A stretch of DNA of 34,775 nt from an uncultured Clostridia bacterium (GTDB lineage: Bacteria; Bacillota; Clostridia; TANB77; CAG-508). The stretch covers positions 1 through 34,775 of the forward strand of contig CALXKC010000013.1 of assembly GCA_944388775.1 (NCBI GenBank). Direction: 5' to 3'. The position numbers and the translations under genes were made by a program. Position 1 is the first letter of the stretch. The number at the start of each line of letters is the position of its first letter. Under the pieces are notes generated by a model. That model worked only from the letters and a program-made list of their open reading frames with translations, had not been told where the DNA came from and did not search any database. Below, piece after piece: positions 5,289 to 18,963 of the stretch.

Positions 5289-6548
5289 TTGGAAAAATTA
5301 GTAGTAAAAGGTCCTACTCCTTTAAAAGGTGAAGTAACAATAAGCGGAGCAAAAAATGCAGCAGTTGCAATTTTACCTGCCACTTTATTAATTGATGGAG
5401 TTTGTACAATTGAAAATTTACCAAATATAAGTGATATAAAAATTTCGTGTGAAATATTAGAACAATTAGGAGCAAAAATAACTTGGAACAATGCACATAG
5501 CATAACTATTGATACAACAAATATTACAACTACAAAAGCTCCTTTAGATTTAACTAGCAAATTTAGAGCTTCTTATTATATAATAGGAGCTATGCTTGGC
5601 AGAAAAGGAGAAATTGAAGTAGGTATGCCTGGTGGTTGTAAACTAGGTGCAAGACCAATTGATCAACATATTAAAGGCTTTGAAATGTTAGGGGCTACAG
5701 TTAATTTAGAAAAAGGAACAATTTATGCCAAAGCAAAAAAATTAAAGGCTGCTCCAATTTATATGGATATTGTATCTGTTGGAGCTACAATTAATGTAAT
5801 GCTTGCAAGTGTATTAGCAAAAGGAACAACTACAATTGATAATGCTGCAAAAGAGCCTCATATAGTAGATGTTGCGAACTTCTTAAATACAATGGGAGCT
5901 GACATTAGAGGTGCTGGTACAGATGTAATCAAAATTAATGGTGTAGAAAAATTACATGGTGGTTGTACATATAGTGTTGTTCCAGATCAAATAGAAGCTG
6001 GTACTTTTATGCTTGCAGCAGTTGCAACAAGAGGTGATTTAACTTTAAAAAATTGTATCACAAAACACTTAGAATCAATTACAGCAAAAATTATTGAAGT
6101 TGGTGGAAATGTAGAAGATAATGGTGATAGTATTCGTGTTTGGTGTAATAAAAGACCAAATAGCGCTAATATTAAGACATTACCTTACCCTGGATTTCCT
6201 ACAGATTTACAACCTCAAATGGGAGTTGTTTTAGCTCTTGCAAATGGAACAAGTGTAATAAATGAAAGTATTTGGGAATCTAGATTCCAATATACAGAAG
6301 AATTAAATAAGATGGGTGCTAAAATTACTGCTCAAGGAAAAACAGCATTTTTTGAAGGTGTAAAAAAATTATATGGTGCACCTGTTTACTCTAGTGATTT
6401 AAGAGCTGGAGCAGCACTTGTAATTGCTGGAACTGCAGCAGAAGGTGAAACTGAAATATATAATCTTGAACATATTGATAGAGGATATGAAAATATAGAA
6501 GAAAAATTCAGAAAAATTGGTGCTAAAATCGAAAGAGTAAAAGAATAG
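5289..6548 (+). CDS. murA: UDP-N-acetylglucosamine 1-carboxyvinyltransferase
   Basis: Cytosolic enzyme that transfers enolpyruvate from PEP to UDP-GlcNAc, the first committed step of peptidoglycan synthesis. The 419 residues match the family. Lys22-Asn23 in TISGAKNAAVAILPA bind substrate, and Cys117 in MPGGCKLGARPID is the active-site cysteine, so the enzyme should be of the fosfomycin-sensitive Cys type. PGFPTDLQPQMG, WESRFQYTEEL and DLRAGAALVIAG are further family blocks. The start is TTG at 5289, preceded by GGGGG with 8 nt spacing; no ATG is nearby. Upstream lies spoIIR, downstream walJ. Bacillota often carry two MurA paralogues and I cannot tell here which one this is. Confidence 0.97.
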   Translation: MEKLVVKGPTPLKGEVTISGAKNAAVAILPATLLIDGVCTIENLPNISDIKISCEILEQLGAKITWNNAHSITIDTTNITTTKAPLDLTSKFRASYYIIGAMLGRKGEIEVGMPGGCKLGARPIDQHIKGFEMLGATVNLEKGTIYAKAKKLKAAPIYMDIVSVGATINVMLASVLAKGTTTIDNAAKEPHIVDVANFLNTMGADIRGAGTDVIKINGVEKLHGGCTYSVVPDQIEAGTFMLAAVATRGDLTLKNCITKHLESITAKIIEVGGNVEDNGDSIRVWCNKRPNSANIKTLPYPGFPTDLQPQMGVVLALANGTSVINESIWESRFQYTEELNKMGAKITAQGKTAFFEGVKKLYGAPVYSSDLRAGAALVIAGTAAEGETEIYNLEHIDRGYENIEEKFRKIGAKIERVKE

Positions 6549-6639
6549 CCAATAAAACATTAATAAGAAAAAATATATTAATTAACAAAGGAAAAATTAG
6601 TTTAAATAACTAATTTATGCCTTAAGGAAGGTATAAAAA

Positions 6640-7428
6640 ATGTTTAAGTTTTGTAGTTTATATAGCGGAAGTAGCGGAAATAGTTTGTTTATAGAAACAC
6701 AAAATACTAAATTACTAATTGATGCAGGTGTTAGTAGCAAAAAAATCGAAAACGCTTTAAATGATATTAACATTGATCCATCTACACTTGATGGAATTTT
6801 AGTGACACATGAACATATAGACCATGTACAAGGGCTTGGAACACTATCAAAAAAGTTTGACTTGCCTGTTTTCGTAAATCAGGAAACATTAGATGCAATG
6901 CCAAAACAAAAAGATAAAATTTCAGAAAAAAATGTTAAAACATTTAAAATATCAGATAAATTTGAAATTGGAGACTTAGAAATCAAACCTTTTTCAATTC
7001 CTCATGATGCTGCAAACCCATGTGGTTTTAACATTTGGAAAGATAATAAAAAAATAAGTATTGCAACAGATATTGGACATATGACAAATCCTATTTTAAA
7101 AAGTTTAGAGGAAAGCCTATTTATAATGTTAGAAGCAAATTATGATCCAGAAGTATTGCGTTGTTCTCCATATCCTTTTACTTTAAAGTCAAGGATTGCA
7201 GGTCCAACAGGACATTTGCCAAATGAGATGGCTGGAAAGACAATTTCTCATTTATTAAAGTCTGGACTCAAAAATGCTATGTTAGGACACTTGAGTAAAC
7301 AAAGTAATTTTCCAGAACTTGCTTATAAAACTGTTGTAGATGAATTGATTTCTAACAATTATAACGAAGATTGTATTTCACTTAGTGTTGCAAGTAGAGA
7401 TAATCATAGTAAAATTATTACAATTTAA
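6640..7428 (+). CDS. walJ: WalJ/YycJ metallo-beta-lactamase-fold hydrolase
   Basis: MBL-fold metal-dependent hydrolase of 262 residues. The N terminus FKFCSLYSGSSGNSLFIE and the metal motif THEHIDH (His57, His59, Asp61, His62) are characteristic of the YycJ/WalJ family, linked to cell-wall and division control through the WalKR locus in Bacillus. SIPHDAANPCGFNI supplies another ligand histidine and GHLSKQSNFPELA lies near the end. AAGGAAGGTATAAAAAATG gives the ribosome site and start. rlmH follows after 14 nt in the same direction, the usual yycJ/rlmH neighbourhood of Firmicutes, though the WalKR genes and htrA are not in this window. The substrate is unknown; DNA or RNA 5' processing has been proposed for the family. 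Confidence 0.92.
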   Translation: MFKFCSLYSGSSGNSLFIETQNTKLLIDAGVSSKKIENALNDINIDPSTLDGILVTHEHIDHVQGLGTLSKKFDLPVFVNQETLDAMPKQKDKISEKNVKTFKISDKFEIGDLEIKPFSIPHDAANPCGFNIWKDNKKISIATDIGHMTNPILKSLEESLFIMLEANYDPEVLRCSPYPFTLKSRIAGPTGHLPNEMAGKTISHLLKSGLKNAMLGHLSKQSNFPELAYKTVVDELISNNYNEDCISLSVASRDNHSKIITI

Positions 7429-7442
7429 AATGGGAGATTATA

Positions 7443-7922
7443 ATGTTAAATATTCAAATAATTTGTATTGGAAAAATTAAAGAAGATTATTTAAAAAGCG
7501 CCATAAACGAATATAGTAAAAGACTTTCAAAATATTGCAAACTTGAAATTCTAGAACTTCCTGACGAGAAAATACCAGATAAATTAAATATCAGTTTAGC
7601 CAATGAAATAAAACAAAAAGAATGTTCTAATATAATTAAACATTTAAAAAAATCTTCTTATAATATTGCTCTTGACTTAAGTGGAAAACAATTAACTTCT
7701 GAACAATTTTCAGAAAAAATAGAAAACCTTTCTATGACAAATAGTAATATCACATTTATTATTGGTGGTTCACTTGGATTAGCAAATGAGCTTTTAAATT
7801 ATTGCCAAGAAAAATTGTGCTTTTCAAAAATGACATTTCCTCATCAATTAATAAGAGTTTTCTTATTAGAACAAATTTTTAGAGGATTTAAAATTGCACA
7901 CAATGAAACATACCATAGATAA
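7443..7922 (+). CDS. rlmH: 23S rRNA pseudouridine-1915 N3-methyltransferase
   Basis: SPOUT-class methyltransferase that uses SAM to methylate pseudouridine 1915 in helix 69 of 23S rRNA on assembled ribosomes. The 159 residues match the family exactly. LNIQIICIGKIKEDYL forms the N terminus, FIIGGSLGLANELL is the trefoil-knot SAM loop, and FSKMTFPHQLIRVFLLEQIF leads into the conserved C terminus ending NETYHR. GGGAGATTATAATG provides a ribosome site. It forms a two-gene unit with walJ. A long inverted repeat begins about 40 nt after the stop. Confidence 0.96.
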   Translation: MLNIQIICIGKIKEDYLKSAINEYSKRLSKYCKLEILELPDEKIPDKLNISLANEIKQKECSNIIKHLKKSSYNIALDLSGKQLTSEQFSEKIENLSMTNSNITFIIGGSLGLANELLNYCQEKLCFSKMTFPHQLIRVFLLEQIFRGFKIAHNETYHR

Positions 7923-7952
7923 TTTTTGTATTCAAAAAATTAAGCATATACA

Positions 7953-8059
7953 TATAATATATAGTTTTGTAGAGAAAATTAAATATAGACAAATTGTAGG
8001 GGCCAAACTAAAGAGCTTTTGTGCATATTTAAAAATGGGGGATTTTCTCTACAAAATTA
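7953..8059 (+). ncRNA. Long-stem inverted repeat, candidate structured RNA or MITE-like element
   Basis: Perfect 15-nt arms TTTTGTAGAGAAAAT (7965-7979) and ATTTTCTCTACAAAA (8042-8056) extend outward by three more pairs, including one G-U. A second 7-bp helix TAAATAT/ATATTTA (7980-7986 with 8025-8031) stacks directly inside, and an ACAAA/TTTGT helix follows. A TATAAT at 7953-7958 with TTCAAA 16 nt upstream would start RNA almost exactly at the first stem base. The loop region holds GGGGCC and GGGGG, unusual in such AT-rich DNA. There is no T-run after the stem, so it is not a standard terminator. No known RNA family was recognised. Confidence 0.4.
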
Positions 8060-8129
8060 AAAACTAAATTAAATCTTACTTTTTATCAATTAGTATTGAA
8101 ATAATTTATATTCAAAAAAATATTTTTTA

Positions 8130-8240
8130 TTAATTTTTAATATTCTCTATTTCTTTCAATAATTTTTTTGATAAAATACGAATTATAATTTTCCTGATTG
8201 TAAAAAATAAGAATATAAATAATAAAATTTTATAAATCAT
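8130..8240 (-). CDS. Unannotated 36-residue hydrophobic, basic peptide
   Basis: An ATG at 8240 opens a 36-codon frame ending in TAA. The peptide starts MIYKILLFIFLFF, has a membrane-spanning first half (about residues 5-23, interrupted by TIRK) and a Lys-rich tail (SKKLLKEIEN). AAAAGGA lies 7 nt before the ATG. A perfect consensus promoter (TTGACA-17-TATAAT, 8298-8270) starts RNA about 23 nt upstream of the ATG. The gene is too short for usual gene callers. Small size, one hydrophobic segment, a basic tail and a strong private promoter are what type I toxins and small membrane regulators share. The inverted repeat at 7965-8056 lies about 75 nt past the stop and could be part of its 3' UTR or an antisense partner. 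Function unknown. Confidence 0.5.
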   Translation of the reverse strand: MIYKILLFIFLFFTIRKIIIRILSKKLLKEIENIKN

Positions 8241-8269
8241 AACTTGTCCTTTTGAATTGAATTTTAATA

Positions 8270-8298
8270 ATTATATATCGAATGGAAATATTTGTCAA
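8270..8298 (-). promoter_or_regulatory. Perfect consensus sigma-A promoter for the small peptide gene
   Basis: Minus strand TTGACA (8298-8293), 17-nt spacer, TATAAT (8275-8270). It lies just after the spmB stop codon and points away from it, toward the 36-residue ORF. Confidence 0.75.
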
Positions 8299-8340
8299 CA
8301 AAAACTTTTCGACAAATAACAACATATTTTTCTGTCAATT

Positions 8341-8868
8341 CTACACAAAAAATTGACAAACTATTATACTTACAATAATTCCAACAATATCTGCTGTTAA
8401 TGCTGCAAGTAAGATATATCTTGTTTTTTTAATCTTCACACAACTTGTATAAACTGCAATAGTATATAAAGTAGTCTCTGTTGAACCCATAATAACAGAA
8501 GCCATCATCCCTAGTGGTGTATCTGTACCATAATTTCTCATAATATCTGTCGCAATAGCAATCGAACTACTACCAGAAATTGGCCTTAACATTGCAAGAG
8601 GCATAAGTTCAGTAGGAAATTTTACAATTGATAATAACGGATTTAAAATATTTATTATAAGGTCTAAAATCCCCGAACTTCTTAAAGCTCCGATTGCAAC
8701 AAATAACCCAATTAAAGTAGGCAAAATGTTAATAACAATTCCTAATCCCTCTTTTGCACCATCTAAAAAATCATCAAAAACATTCTTTTTCTCTTTTAAA
8801 CCATATATAACAATAATTAAAATAATTAATGGCATAGCCAAATTTGAAATAAAATTTACTATCTTCAT
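8341..8868 (-). CDS. spmB: Spore maturation protein B
   Basis: Integral membrane protein of the nucleoside-recognition (gate) family, needed with SpmA for spore core dehydration in Bacillus. The 175 residues show several membrane segments (NLAMPLIILIIVIYGL, VINILPTLIGLFVAIGAL, IAVYTSC, LAALTADIVGIIVSIIVC) and the conserved blocks MPLAMLRPISGSSS and GTDTPLGMMASVIMGSTETTLY. GAAGGGATG precedes the ATG. It follows spmA by 50 nt on the same strand, the usual order, and the two are thought to work as a pair. What it transports is not established. Confidence 0.95.
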   Translation of the reverse strand: MKIVNFISNLAMPLIILIIVIYGLKEKKNVFDDFLDGAKEGLGIVINILPTLIGLFVAIGALRSSGILDLIINILNPLLSIVKFPTELMPLAMLRPISGSSSIAIATDIMRNYGTDTPLGMMASVIMGSTETTLYTIAVYTSCVKIKKTRYILLAALTADIVGIIVSIIVCQFFV

Positions 8869-8918
8869 TATTAGAACATCCCTTCTTAAGGTGCAAATTT
8901 TTTAATTCAAAATATTAT

Positions 8919-9509
8919 TTAATGCTTTTCATTTTGAGTTACTTTAATTAATATTTTTACTGCAATAATTCCGCAAATTGCCGCACAAATAGTAGCAATC
9001 CAAACTGGAAAAACAATTGCAGTTGGATTTTCAGAGCCTAATGAATTTCTAATTGCTATAACTGTAGTTGGAATTATTTGAATTGAAGCAGTATTTATAA
9101 CAATAAACATTGCCATAGAATCAGTTAACCTATCTTTTTGAGGATTCTCCTCCTGCATTGATTTCATAGCTTTTAATCCTAATGGAGTTGCCGCATTTCC
9201 TAAACCTAGAATATTTGCAATCATATTCATAGAAATTTCTTTTTGAATTTTAGGTTTCGTTCTTAATTCAGGAAATAAATATCTTATAATAGGTTTCAAA
9301 AATCCAGTCAATTTGTCTATTACAGATGTTTTACTTGCAACTTGCATTATTCCATTCCAAAGACAAATTGTCCCCAACAAATTAATTGAAAGGTTTATTG
9401 CTTCTTCCGTGCTTTTAAATATTTCTGAATTTAATAAATTTATATCTCCAAAAAAAATTGCATAAGAGAATGATAATATTATAAAAATTGGCCACACTAT
9501 ATTTAACAT
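8919..9509 (-). CDS. spmA: Spore maturation protein A
   Basis: Integral membrane partner of SpmB, with the same gate-family fold. About 196 residues: MLNIVWPIFIILSFSYAIFF, the long helix NLLGTICLWNGIMQVA, the conserved loop MIANILGLGNAATPLGLKAM, and SMAMFIVINTASIQIIPTTV. I place the start at the ATG at 9509 because AGGTGAT sits 6 nt before it; the GTG at 9518 lies inside that ribosome site. In Bacillus spmA-spmB is made in the mother cell under sigma-E, but I could not find a convincing sigma-E promoter at proper distance here. Confidence 0.94.
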   Translation of the reverse strand: MLNIVWPIFIILSFSYAIFFGDINLLNSEIFKSTEEAINLSINLLGTICLWNGIMQVASKTSVIDKLTGFLKPIIRYLFPELRTKPKIQKEISMNMIANILGLGNAATPLGLKAMKSMQEENPQKDRLTDSMAMFIVINTASIQIIPTTVIAIRNSLGSENPTAIVFPVWIATICAAICGIIAVKILIKVTQNEKH

Positions 9510-9561
9510 GGTTATCACCTAAATAATTTTATGCAAAACTTGACTTTTTATTACAATATAA

Positions 9562-9590
9562 TTGACCTTATGCATTATTTATGATATATT
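9562..9590 (+). promoter_or_regulatory. Sigma-A promoter of abrB
   Basis: TTGACC (9562-9567), 17 nt, TATATT (9585-9590), with the abrB ribosome site AAGGAGGATACG about 35 nt downstream. Confidence 0.7.
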
Positions 9591-9637
9591 AGTATTGCAT
9601 AGGATTGTAGACTATAACTTTTAAGGAGGATACGTTT

Positions 9638-9910
9638 ATGAAGTCAACTGGAATTATAAGAAGAGTAGATGAACTAGGACGTGTTGTTATACCTATAGAA
9701 ATTAGAAATCAATTTAATATAGTTGAAAAAGACCCTATTGAAATATATGTTGAGGGATCATCTATCATCTTAAAAAAGTTTGAACCAAACTGCATTTTCT
9801 GCGGTAATACAAAAAATTTATTAAAATATCATGATAAATTAATTTGTAAAAATTGTTCAAAAAAAATCGGACAATTAGAAGAAAATCAAGAAAATGAAGT
9901 AAAAGAATAA
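9638..9910 (+). CDS. abrB: AbrB-family transition-state regulator with a zinc-ribbon-like tail
   Basis: DNA-binding regulator of 90 residues. Residues 1-48 form the swapped-hairpin AbrB domain (STGIIRRVDELGRVVIPIEI, IEIYVEGSSIILKK). The second half carries two CxxC pairs (CIFCG and CKNC, 19 residues apart), a small zinc-ribbon-like module common in clostridial AbrB proteins. AAGGAGG precedes the ATG. AbrB proteins bind AT-rich promoters as tetramers and hold back stationary-phase and sporulation genes, which fits spmAB next door. It has its own promoter and is convergent with rsmI, the same arrangement as abrB and yabC in Bacillus. Confidence 0.92.
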   Translation: MKSTGIIRRVDELGRVVIPIEIRNQFNIVEKDPIEIYVEGSSIILKKFEPNCIFCGNTKNLLKYHDKLICKNCSKKIGQLEENQENEVKE

Positions 9911-9929
9911 GGGCAAACAGCCCTTTTCT
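9909..9929 (+). terminator. abrB terminator
   Basis: AAGGGC (9909-9914), loop AAACA, GCCCTT (9920-9925) and a short T-rich tail. It begins in the abrB stop codon and separates abrB from convergent rsmI. Confidence 0.7.
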
Positions 9930-9954
9930 CATGCAAAGAAATATATCTGATTTA

Positions 9955-10779
9955 TTATGTATCTATGAATTTTTGATAAATATCATTTTTAGTAACATTT
10001 CTATCTTTAGCAATTTTTTTAATAATTTCTTTTTTATCAAACCCTTGACTTTCATACATCTTATAATGTTCTTCTAAACTAATATTAGTAAAATCATTAT
10101 GACTATTTTGAATAAAATCATTTTTTTCAATAATAATTACTATTTCGCCTTTTATATTATCAGCAATATTTATAATATCATCTATTTTTCCTCTCAAAAA
10201 TTCTTCATGAATTTTAGTTATTTCCCTTGCTAAAACTATTTTTCTATCTTCAACAATCTCCTTTAAATCCAATAACGTTGTTTTTAATTTATGTGGTGCT
10301 TCATAAATAATAATTGTATTTTTAGCATTTTTTATCTCATTTAATTTTTCTTTTCTAGATTTTTTATTTAATGGCAAAAATCCTAAAAAAGTAAATTCAC
10401 TTGTATCTAATCCGGAACAAATTAATGCATTAACCATTGCACATGCTCCTGGTATAGGTATAATTTCAATATTTTTTTCTATACATTCTTTTATAATTTC
10501 ATGTCCTGGATCACAAATTCCCGGTGTTCCGGCATCAGAAACTAATGCAATATTTTGTCCCTCTTCTAATTTTTCAATTAATACTTTTGATTTTACATCT
10601 TCATTATGCCTGTGATAGCTTATTAGTGGCTTTGAAATCTCTAAATGATTTAATAATTTTAAAGTATGCCTCGTATCTTCAGCTGCTATTAAATCAACAT
10701 TTTTTAATACATCAATTGCTCTTAATGTAATGTCTCCTAAATTTCCAATAGGTGTTGCAACTATATATAATTTTCCCAT
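9955..10779 (-). CDS. rsmI: 16S rRNA cytidine-1402 2'-O-methyltransferase
   Basis: SAM-dependent enzyme of the tetrapyrrole-methylase fold that methylates C1402 in the ribosomal P site region. 274 residues, the usual length. Clear blocks are YIVATPIGNLGDITLRAID at the start, AAEDTRHTLKLLNH, SYHRHNE, ALVSDAGTPGICDPGHEI and FTFLGFLP. AGGGGAG precedes the ATG. It lies 12 nt after the yabB-like gene on the same strand, so they are co-transcribed. The order yabB, rsmI, then convergent abrB is conserved with Bacillus; the small GIY-YIG gene yazA found between them there is absent. Confidence 0.96.
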   Translation of the reverse strand: MGKLYIVATPIGNLGDITLRAIDVLKNVDLIAAEDTRHTLKLLNHLEISKPLISYHRHNEDVKSKVLIEKLEEGQNIALVSDAGTPGICDPGHEIIKECIEKNIEIIPIPGACAMVNALICSGLDTSEFTFLGFLPLNKKSRKEKLNEIKNAKNTIIIYEAPHKLKTTLLDLKEIVEDRKIVLAREITKIHEEFLRGKIDDIINIADNIKGEIVIIIEKNDFIQNSHNDFTNISLEEHYKMYESQGFDKKEIIKKIAKDRNVTKNDIYQKFIDT

Positions 10780-18934: not shown

Positions 18935-18963
18935 TTGACATATAATAAAATGTGAGTTATAAT
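18935..18963 (+). promoter_or_regulatory. Perfect consensus promoter of the antisense (antitoxin) RNA
   Basis: TTGACA (18935-18940), 17 nt, TATAAT (18958-18963). No ORF with a ribosome site follows before the terminator at 19003-19042, so it drives a short noncoding RNA of about 75 nt. Confidence 0.85.

Follow-up and report, generated by a model that had tools for sequence, protein, structure and literature searches.

Few dual-function RNAs are known from Gram-positive bacteria. In Staphylococcus aureus, RNAIII combines a short helical peptide, delta-haemolysin, with a structured RNA that has C-rich loops. Type I toxins such as TisB, Fst and TxpA are hydrophobic and basic single helices of 30-odd residues. 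In Bacillus subtilis, SR1/SR1P joins a small ORF to a separate RNA function and is linked to the control of sporulation (PMC8501984). The direct Spo0A regulon, including spoIIAA, spoIIE and spoIIGA, carries 0A boxes with the core TGTCGAA, in which Spo0A contacts G2, C4 and G5 (PMC3485338). Entry into sporulation is poorly known in uncultured gut Clostridia, and we describe here a microprotein gene that is a concrete candidate component of it.

The gene lies in a window of 34,775 nucleotides (the whole stretch of DNA that was analysed) from an uncultured Clostridia bacterium. Like SR1/SR1P and RNAIII, it brings together a small ORF and a structured RNA, but no homology to either is apparent. 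In distinction to SR1/SR1P, its ORF is followed by a long-range closing stem with C-runs and encodes a membrane-type helix, while a fixed place beside spmB and a Spo0A-type promoter set it apart from RNAIII. The TGTCGAA box of the direct Spo0A regulon occurs here too, also upstream of spoIIAA, whereas the promoter itself is a canonical sigma-A promoter with a 17-nt spacer, whose boxes begin 16 and 26 nt 5' of the first base of the -35 hexamer. No paper describing the locus was found in the literature searched. Comparison among relatives, for which all sequences were MAG data, established selection on the ORF, a conserved promoter block, and an RNA stem together with its strand. We consider it probable that the locus is a conserved gene for a cationic, single-helix membrane microprotein, with a structured 3' RNA and its own sigma-A-type promoter with tandem 0A boxes, most likely switched by Spo0A~P.

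The initial annotation had placed a 36-codon ORF directly after spmB on the same strand, behind TTGACA-17-TATAAT and AAAAGGA, and had described its product as hydrophobic in the first half and Lys-rich in the tail. All of these elements were recovered (Table 1). The ORF runs on the minus strand from an ATG at 8240 to a stop codon at 8132-8130 and encodes 36 aa (MIYKILLFIFLFFTIRKIIIRILSKKLLKEIENIKN), with a hydrophobic N-terminal half and a Lys/Arg-rich second half; AAAAGGA serves as its Shine-Dalgarno sequence, and the promoter matches the consensus at 12/12 positions. In most loci read, the homologous gene likewise lies between spmB, upstream on the same strand, and a convergent rlmH or yycJ-like MBL gene.

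Table 1. Features of the microprotein locus, in window coordinates and in the order of transcription of the microprotein strand
Feature	Position	Strand	Remark
spmB, spore maturation protein B	8341..8868	-	syntenic in most relatives
Spo0A-like box 1, degenerate, TGTTGTT	8318..8324	-	TGTCG there in 51/89 relatives' promoters
Spo0A-like box 2, TGTCGAA, perfect core	8308..8314	-	starts 16 nt 5' of -35 start
-35 element TTGACA	8293..8298	-	conserved in relatives
-10 element TATAAT, 17-nt spacer	8270..8275	-	conserved; transcription start expected near 8263
Shine-Dalgarno AAAAGGA	8247..8253	-	absent in leaderless relatives
Microprotein ORF, 36 codons, predicted single helix	8130..8240	-	homologues, selection, structure prediction
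Structured 3' RNA element	7963..8064	-	covariance model R1 match, 78.7 bits; ORF's strand
Closing stem, 5' arm TTTTGTAGAGAAAAT	8042..8056	-	
Loop C5 run CCCCC	8037..8041	-	
Conserved loop motif GGCCCCTA	7997..8004	-	
Closing stem, 3' arm ATTTTCTCTACAAAA	7965..7979	-	
rlmH, convergent downstream neighbour	7443..7922	+	ORF list and relatives' synteny

Homologues of the microprotein (31-50 aa) were found in 142/195 genomes of the same genus by tblastn and profile search, and some of the genomes without a match may be incomplete or diverged assemblies rather than cases of gene loss. Across the order, the profile matched 124/287 genomes, all of one family and spread over 21 genera (20 besides that of the window), and it found no homologue in the four other families among these 287 genomes. 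Frame disruptions in close relatives had been named as an observation that would speak against the gene; the reading frame was open in 104/104 loci first examined. The start codon was ATG, GTG or TTG in 101 of the 104, two species (L005 and L019) have an apparent ATT start behind a perfect AAAAGGAGG, and one locus (L071) carries a masked N stretch. The suggested test of synonymous sites gave a pooled dN/dS of 0.29 (JC-corrected; pS 0.239, pN 0.078; 22 independent pairs), compared with pN/pS values of 0.93 and 1.34 in the two shifted frames of the same pairs. Purifying selection on the reading frame is thus strongly supported by the substitution pattern. A chance ORF behind a chance promoter was ruled out by the homologues, the dN/dS, the conserved promoter and the shuffle test described below, and on this comparative evidence the 36-codon ORF is a real, single-copy, conserved gene.

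The consensus peptide of the family reads MIxKILLFISIFFIVRKIIIKILSKKLLKEI, and the median net charge of the homologues is +7. AlphaFold2, run on the single sequence, predicted one helix over residues 2-35 with a pLDDT of 97. A hydrophobic first half followed by an amphipathic, basic second half fits insertion into the inner membrane, which the peptide would enter by its hydrophobic N-terminal half. No family in Pfam, NCBIfam or PHROGs matched the peptide above cut-off.

A conserved stem (UUGUAGAGAAAAU/AUUUUCUCUACAA) with C5 and GCCCC loops follows 3' of the ORF. From the stop codon towards rlmH, the element is laid out as GTTTTTAAT-TTTGTAGAGAAAAT-CCCCC-...-GCCCCTA-...-ATTTTCTCTACAAAA, and the copy in the window has a folding z-score of -4.2. 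The element was recognised in about 88/101 same-genus loci, the search used leaving about 13 without a recognisable 3' stem, and it recurs with changed stems in 19/20 loci of other genera. In the genus alignment, 10/16 pairs showed double changes, a number equalled by 0/500 shuffles, and the sister genera have compensatory stems such as TTACAGAAGG/CCTTCTGTAG, TTGCAGGGA/TCCCTGCAG and TTGTAGCAG/CTGCTACAA. Wobble pairs in the stem core comprised 11 G.U and 0 A.C in the genus and again 11 G.U and 0 A.C in the sister genera (22 versus 0 in total), which indicates a structured RNA on the strand of the peptide. C-runs of at least four occur in 80/88 element copies, and 58/88 have two or more runs. 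The covariance model R1, whose E-values are rough, found one copy per genome, located at the peptide locus in 19/20 genomes with a match; in the twentieth (G010) the match lies close to a contig end, and in G017 the same stem gave an extra weak match on the opposite strand, as an inverted repeat would. No relevant covariance-model match was obtained with Rfam 15 for the window or the homologous loci.

Two other origins of the stem were considered and rejected. It is not a repeated or mobile element, being single copy per genome and at the microprotein locus in all but G010. Nor is it an intrinsic terminator, be it of rlmH or of the peptide gene, since no U-run follows it on either strand; on the peptide strand it is followed by AAAACC-type sequence, on the opposite one by AATTAAAAAC.

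The initial annotation had offered two readings of the micropeptide, as a type I toxin or as a sporulation-linked membrane peptide. That a genuine membrane-type micropeptide is encoded close behind the promoter is strongly supported by family-wide conservation, purifying selection and the conserved promoter, and the link to sporulation is supported by the synteny and Spo0A-box-like repeats taken up below, whereas the toxin reading is not supported. As a type I toxin-antitoxin system, the locus would encode a membrane toxin peptide silenced by an antisense RNA from the opposite strand. The size of the peptide, its hydrophobic N-terminus and Lys-rich tail, the strong promoter and the structured 3' region all agree with such a toxin; however, a search for antisense promoters gave mean best scores of 9.13 versus 9.08 for shuffled sequence in the 250 nt downstream of the ORF and 9.03 versus 8.94 across the ORF, with no conservation in either region. 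Further, the structured element shares the strand of the peptide, no toxin or other family in Pfam, NCBIfam or PHROGs matched, and the gene, present once per genome and in syntenic position, is conserved throughout the family rather than sporadic, in contrast to TisB, Fst and TxpA. Because no opposite-strand promoter is conserved, the type I reading is disfavoured, and we regard it as improbable.

The relation between peptide and RNA leaves more than one reading. In several species, the stop codon of the ORF lies inside the 5' motif of the element (GTTTTTAA), for which a shared transcript is the simplest reading. No transcript end is predicted; this overlap and the spacing suggest that ORF and element are carried on one transcript. 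The peptide alone might matter, with the 3' stem acting in cis as a stability or Rho-related 3'-UTR element and having no function in trans. The closing stem lies near the stop codon, the loops are C-rich and G-poor as in Rho loading sites, and no trans targets were found, and we give this reading somewhat less than even odds. On the other hand, the motifs of the loops and the flank GUUUUUAAU keep their sequence across genera to a degree beyond the needs of a simple stability stem, and the missing U-run excludes termination of the intrinsic type. The converse reading makes the RNA the main product and the ORF secondary or a means of setting ribosome coverage. That the element is single copy and kept in the genus as well as in most of its sister genera would suit it, but the peptide is under purifying selection and homologues are also kept by species in which no element is recognisable (e.g. 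L018, L048, L061, L077 and L096), and we hold this reading to be very improbable.

Candidate targets of the C-runs were sought as GGGGG-N2-9-ATG sites, which number 37 in the window genome compared with 20 in the control. Genes behind such G5 Shine-Dalgarno sites include yabP- and bofA-like genes, named by eye, of which bofA was confirmed by PF07441. The G-run at bofA is not kept in relatives, and no target of the C-loops is proposed.

The promoter of the microprotein gene far exceeds chance expectation: the best upstream match scored at least 11/12 in 86% of 99 homologous loci, compared with 1% of dinucleotide shuffles. Loci in these promoter statistics and in those of the RNA were picked by peptide match, so that the figures apply to loci that have the gene and do not tell how often it is absent. 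The initial annotation had called perfect promoters rare even in AT-rich DNA, and the site is the single 12/12 match within 6000-10500. It had also spoken of another hydrophobic and basic micropeptide with a strong private promoter in the window. The only other perfect TTGACA-17-TATAAT in the window lies at 18935-18963 on the plus strand with no obvious ORF behind it; the strong inverted repeat that comes after it, AAGACTAGGAA...TTCCTAGTCTT, points to a leader or small RNA.

Across 89 distinct relatives with TTGACA-17-TAnnnT, the -35, the -10, their spacing and an upstream block are fixed. Twenty of the 89 promoters, from 20 species (e.g. L016, L037 and L058), have only 6-7 nt between the -10 and the ATG and no Shine-Dalgarno sequence, as against a 29-nt gap and a Shine-Dalgarno in the window species. 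With this distance, transcription is expected to start at the start codon (about +1), i.e. the mRNA would be leaderless, and these relatives offer a natural system in which to test leaderless translation in Clostridia.

The upstream block, TGTCG-N5-TGTCG-WAAAGTTTTT, ends at the -35 and is nearly as constant as the promoter in the 89 relatives, with the TGTCG boxes spaced by 10 bp, at -61 and -51. Only 34/89 promoters have an exact TGTCG in both boxes; among the contact positions, the C of box 1 is kept in 61% and G5 of box 2 in 64%, the others in 82-92%. TGTCGAA occurs twice in the window, the other copy being inside coding sequence. The combination TGTCG-N11-TTGACA-N17-TAnnnT occurred 65 times among 55 genomes of the order, compared with 0 occurrences of the reversed control; the window genome has it at the microprotein promoter only. 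As a control, spoIIAA of the same genomes has TGTCGAA upstream at 13/19 loci, where the usual form is TGTCGAAAASTT and nearly all copies lie 90-190 bp from the match. For spoIIE, taken as a second positive control, most of the DNA upstream fell outside the sequence covered. The Spo0A_C domain (PF08769) is present in 54/55 genomes, including the window genome G000 (E 3e-47). Many genomes of the order encode 2-6 proteins with this domain, some of them clearly diverged paralogues.

The block is read as Spo0A sites because TGTCGAA is the core 0A box, the spoIIAA upstream region shares this core and Spo0A is present in 54/55 genomes. Together with the spmA/spmB synteny, the Spo0A-box-like tandem repeats support a link of the peptide to sporulation. 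Binding of Spo0A would presumably activate the microprotein promoter. Boxes upstream of the -35 are characteristic of activation by Spo0A, which makes activation likelier than repression; a perfect sigma-A promoter should need no activator, however, and Spo0A could thus modulate or even repress it. A regulator other than Spo0A might bind the TGTCG boxes, given that the canonical 17-nt spacer and the box distance are unlike textbook Spo0A-activated promoters and that several Spo0A_C paralogues exist in the order. The box core is nevertheless identical to the 0A box (PMC3485338) and recurs upstream of spoIIAA in the same genomes, and a different regulator appears rather unlikely.

In the Spo0A-switched microprotein gene that we favour, Spo0A~P would raise the transcript as cells enter sporulation or stationary phase and the peptide would sit in the membrane. 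The 3' element, as part of the peptide mRNA, may have a regulatory or stabilising role exerted by its exposed C-runs, so that the transcript would be a dual-function RNA, serving as an mRNA and also as an RNA that base-pairs or binds protein. Of what one looks for in such an RNA, a small ORF under selection and a conserved structured RNA on the same strand were found here. More tentatively, the locus may represent a new family of dual-function RNAs in gut Clostridia, Spo0A-switched and in one group of species leaderless, that supplies a membrane microprotein and a regulatory RNA with conserved C-run seeds at the start of sporulation. If microORF and RNA element are indeed carried on the RNA of one strand, they would extend the few known Gram-positive cases to a new lineage. 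Kept across a family behind a Spo0A-type promoter, the microprotein gene is absent from every protein and RNA family library searched.

Promoters of the class TGTCG-N11-TTGACA-N17-TATAAT (L196-L235) occur across the order and are a candidate Spo0A sigma-A regulon. They precede VirB4-like operons and genes for a TasA/CalY-like secreted protein, YmdB, and Rpn-like and coiled-coil proteins; the VirB4-like and TasA/CalY-like genes were named by eye from sequence and YmdB by Pfam. Elsewhere in the window, an 11/12 promoter and a AAAGGGGGG Shine-Dalgarno sequence at 34313-34243 on the minus strand stand before a chromosomal T4SS-like operon, which extends from 34245 down to about 20018 and contains, as judged by eye, pilin-like, PrgI-like, VirB4-like and lysozyme/CHAP-like genes.
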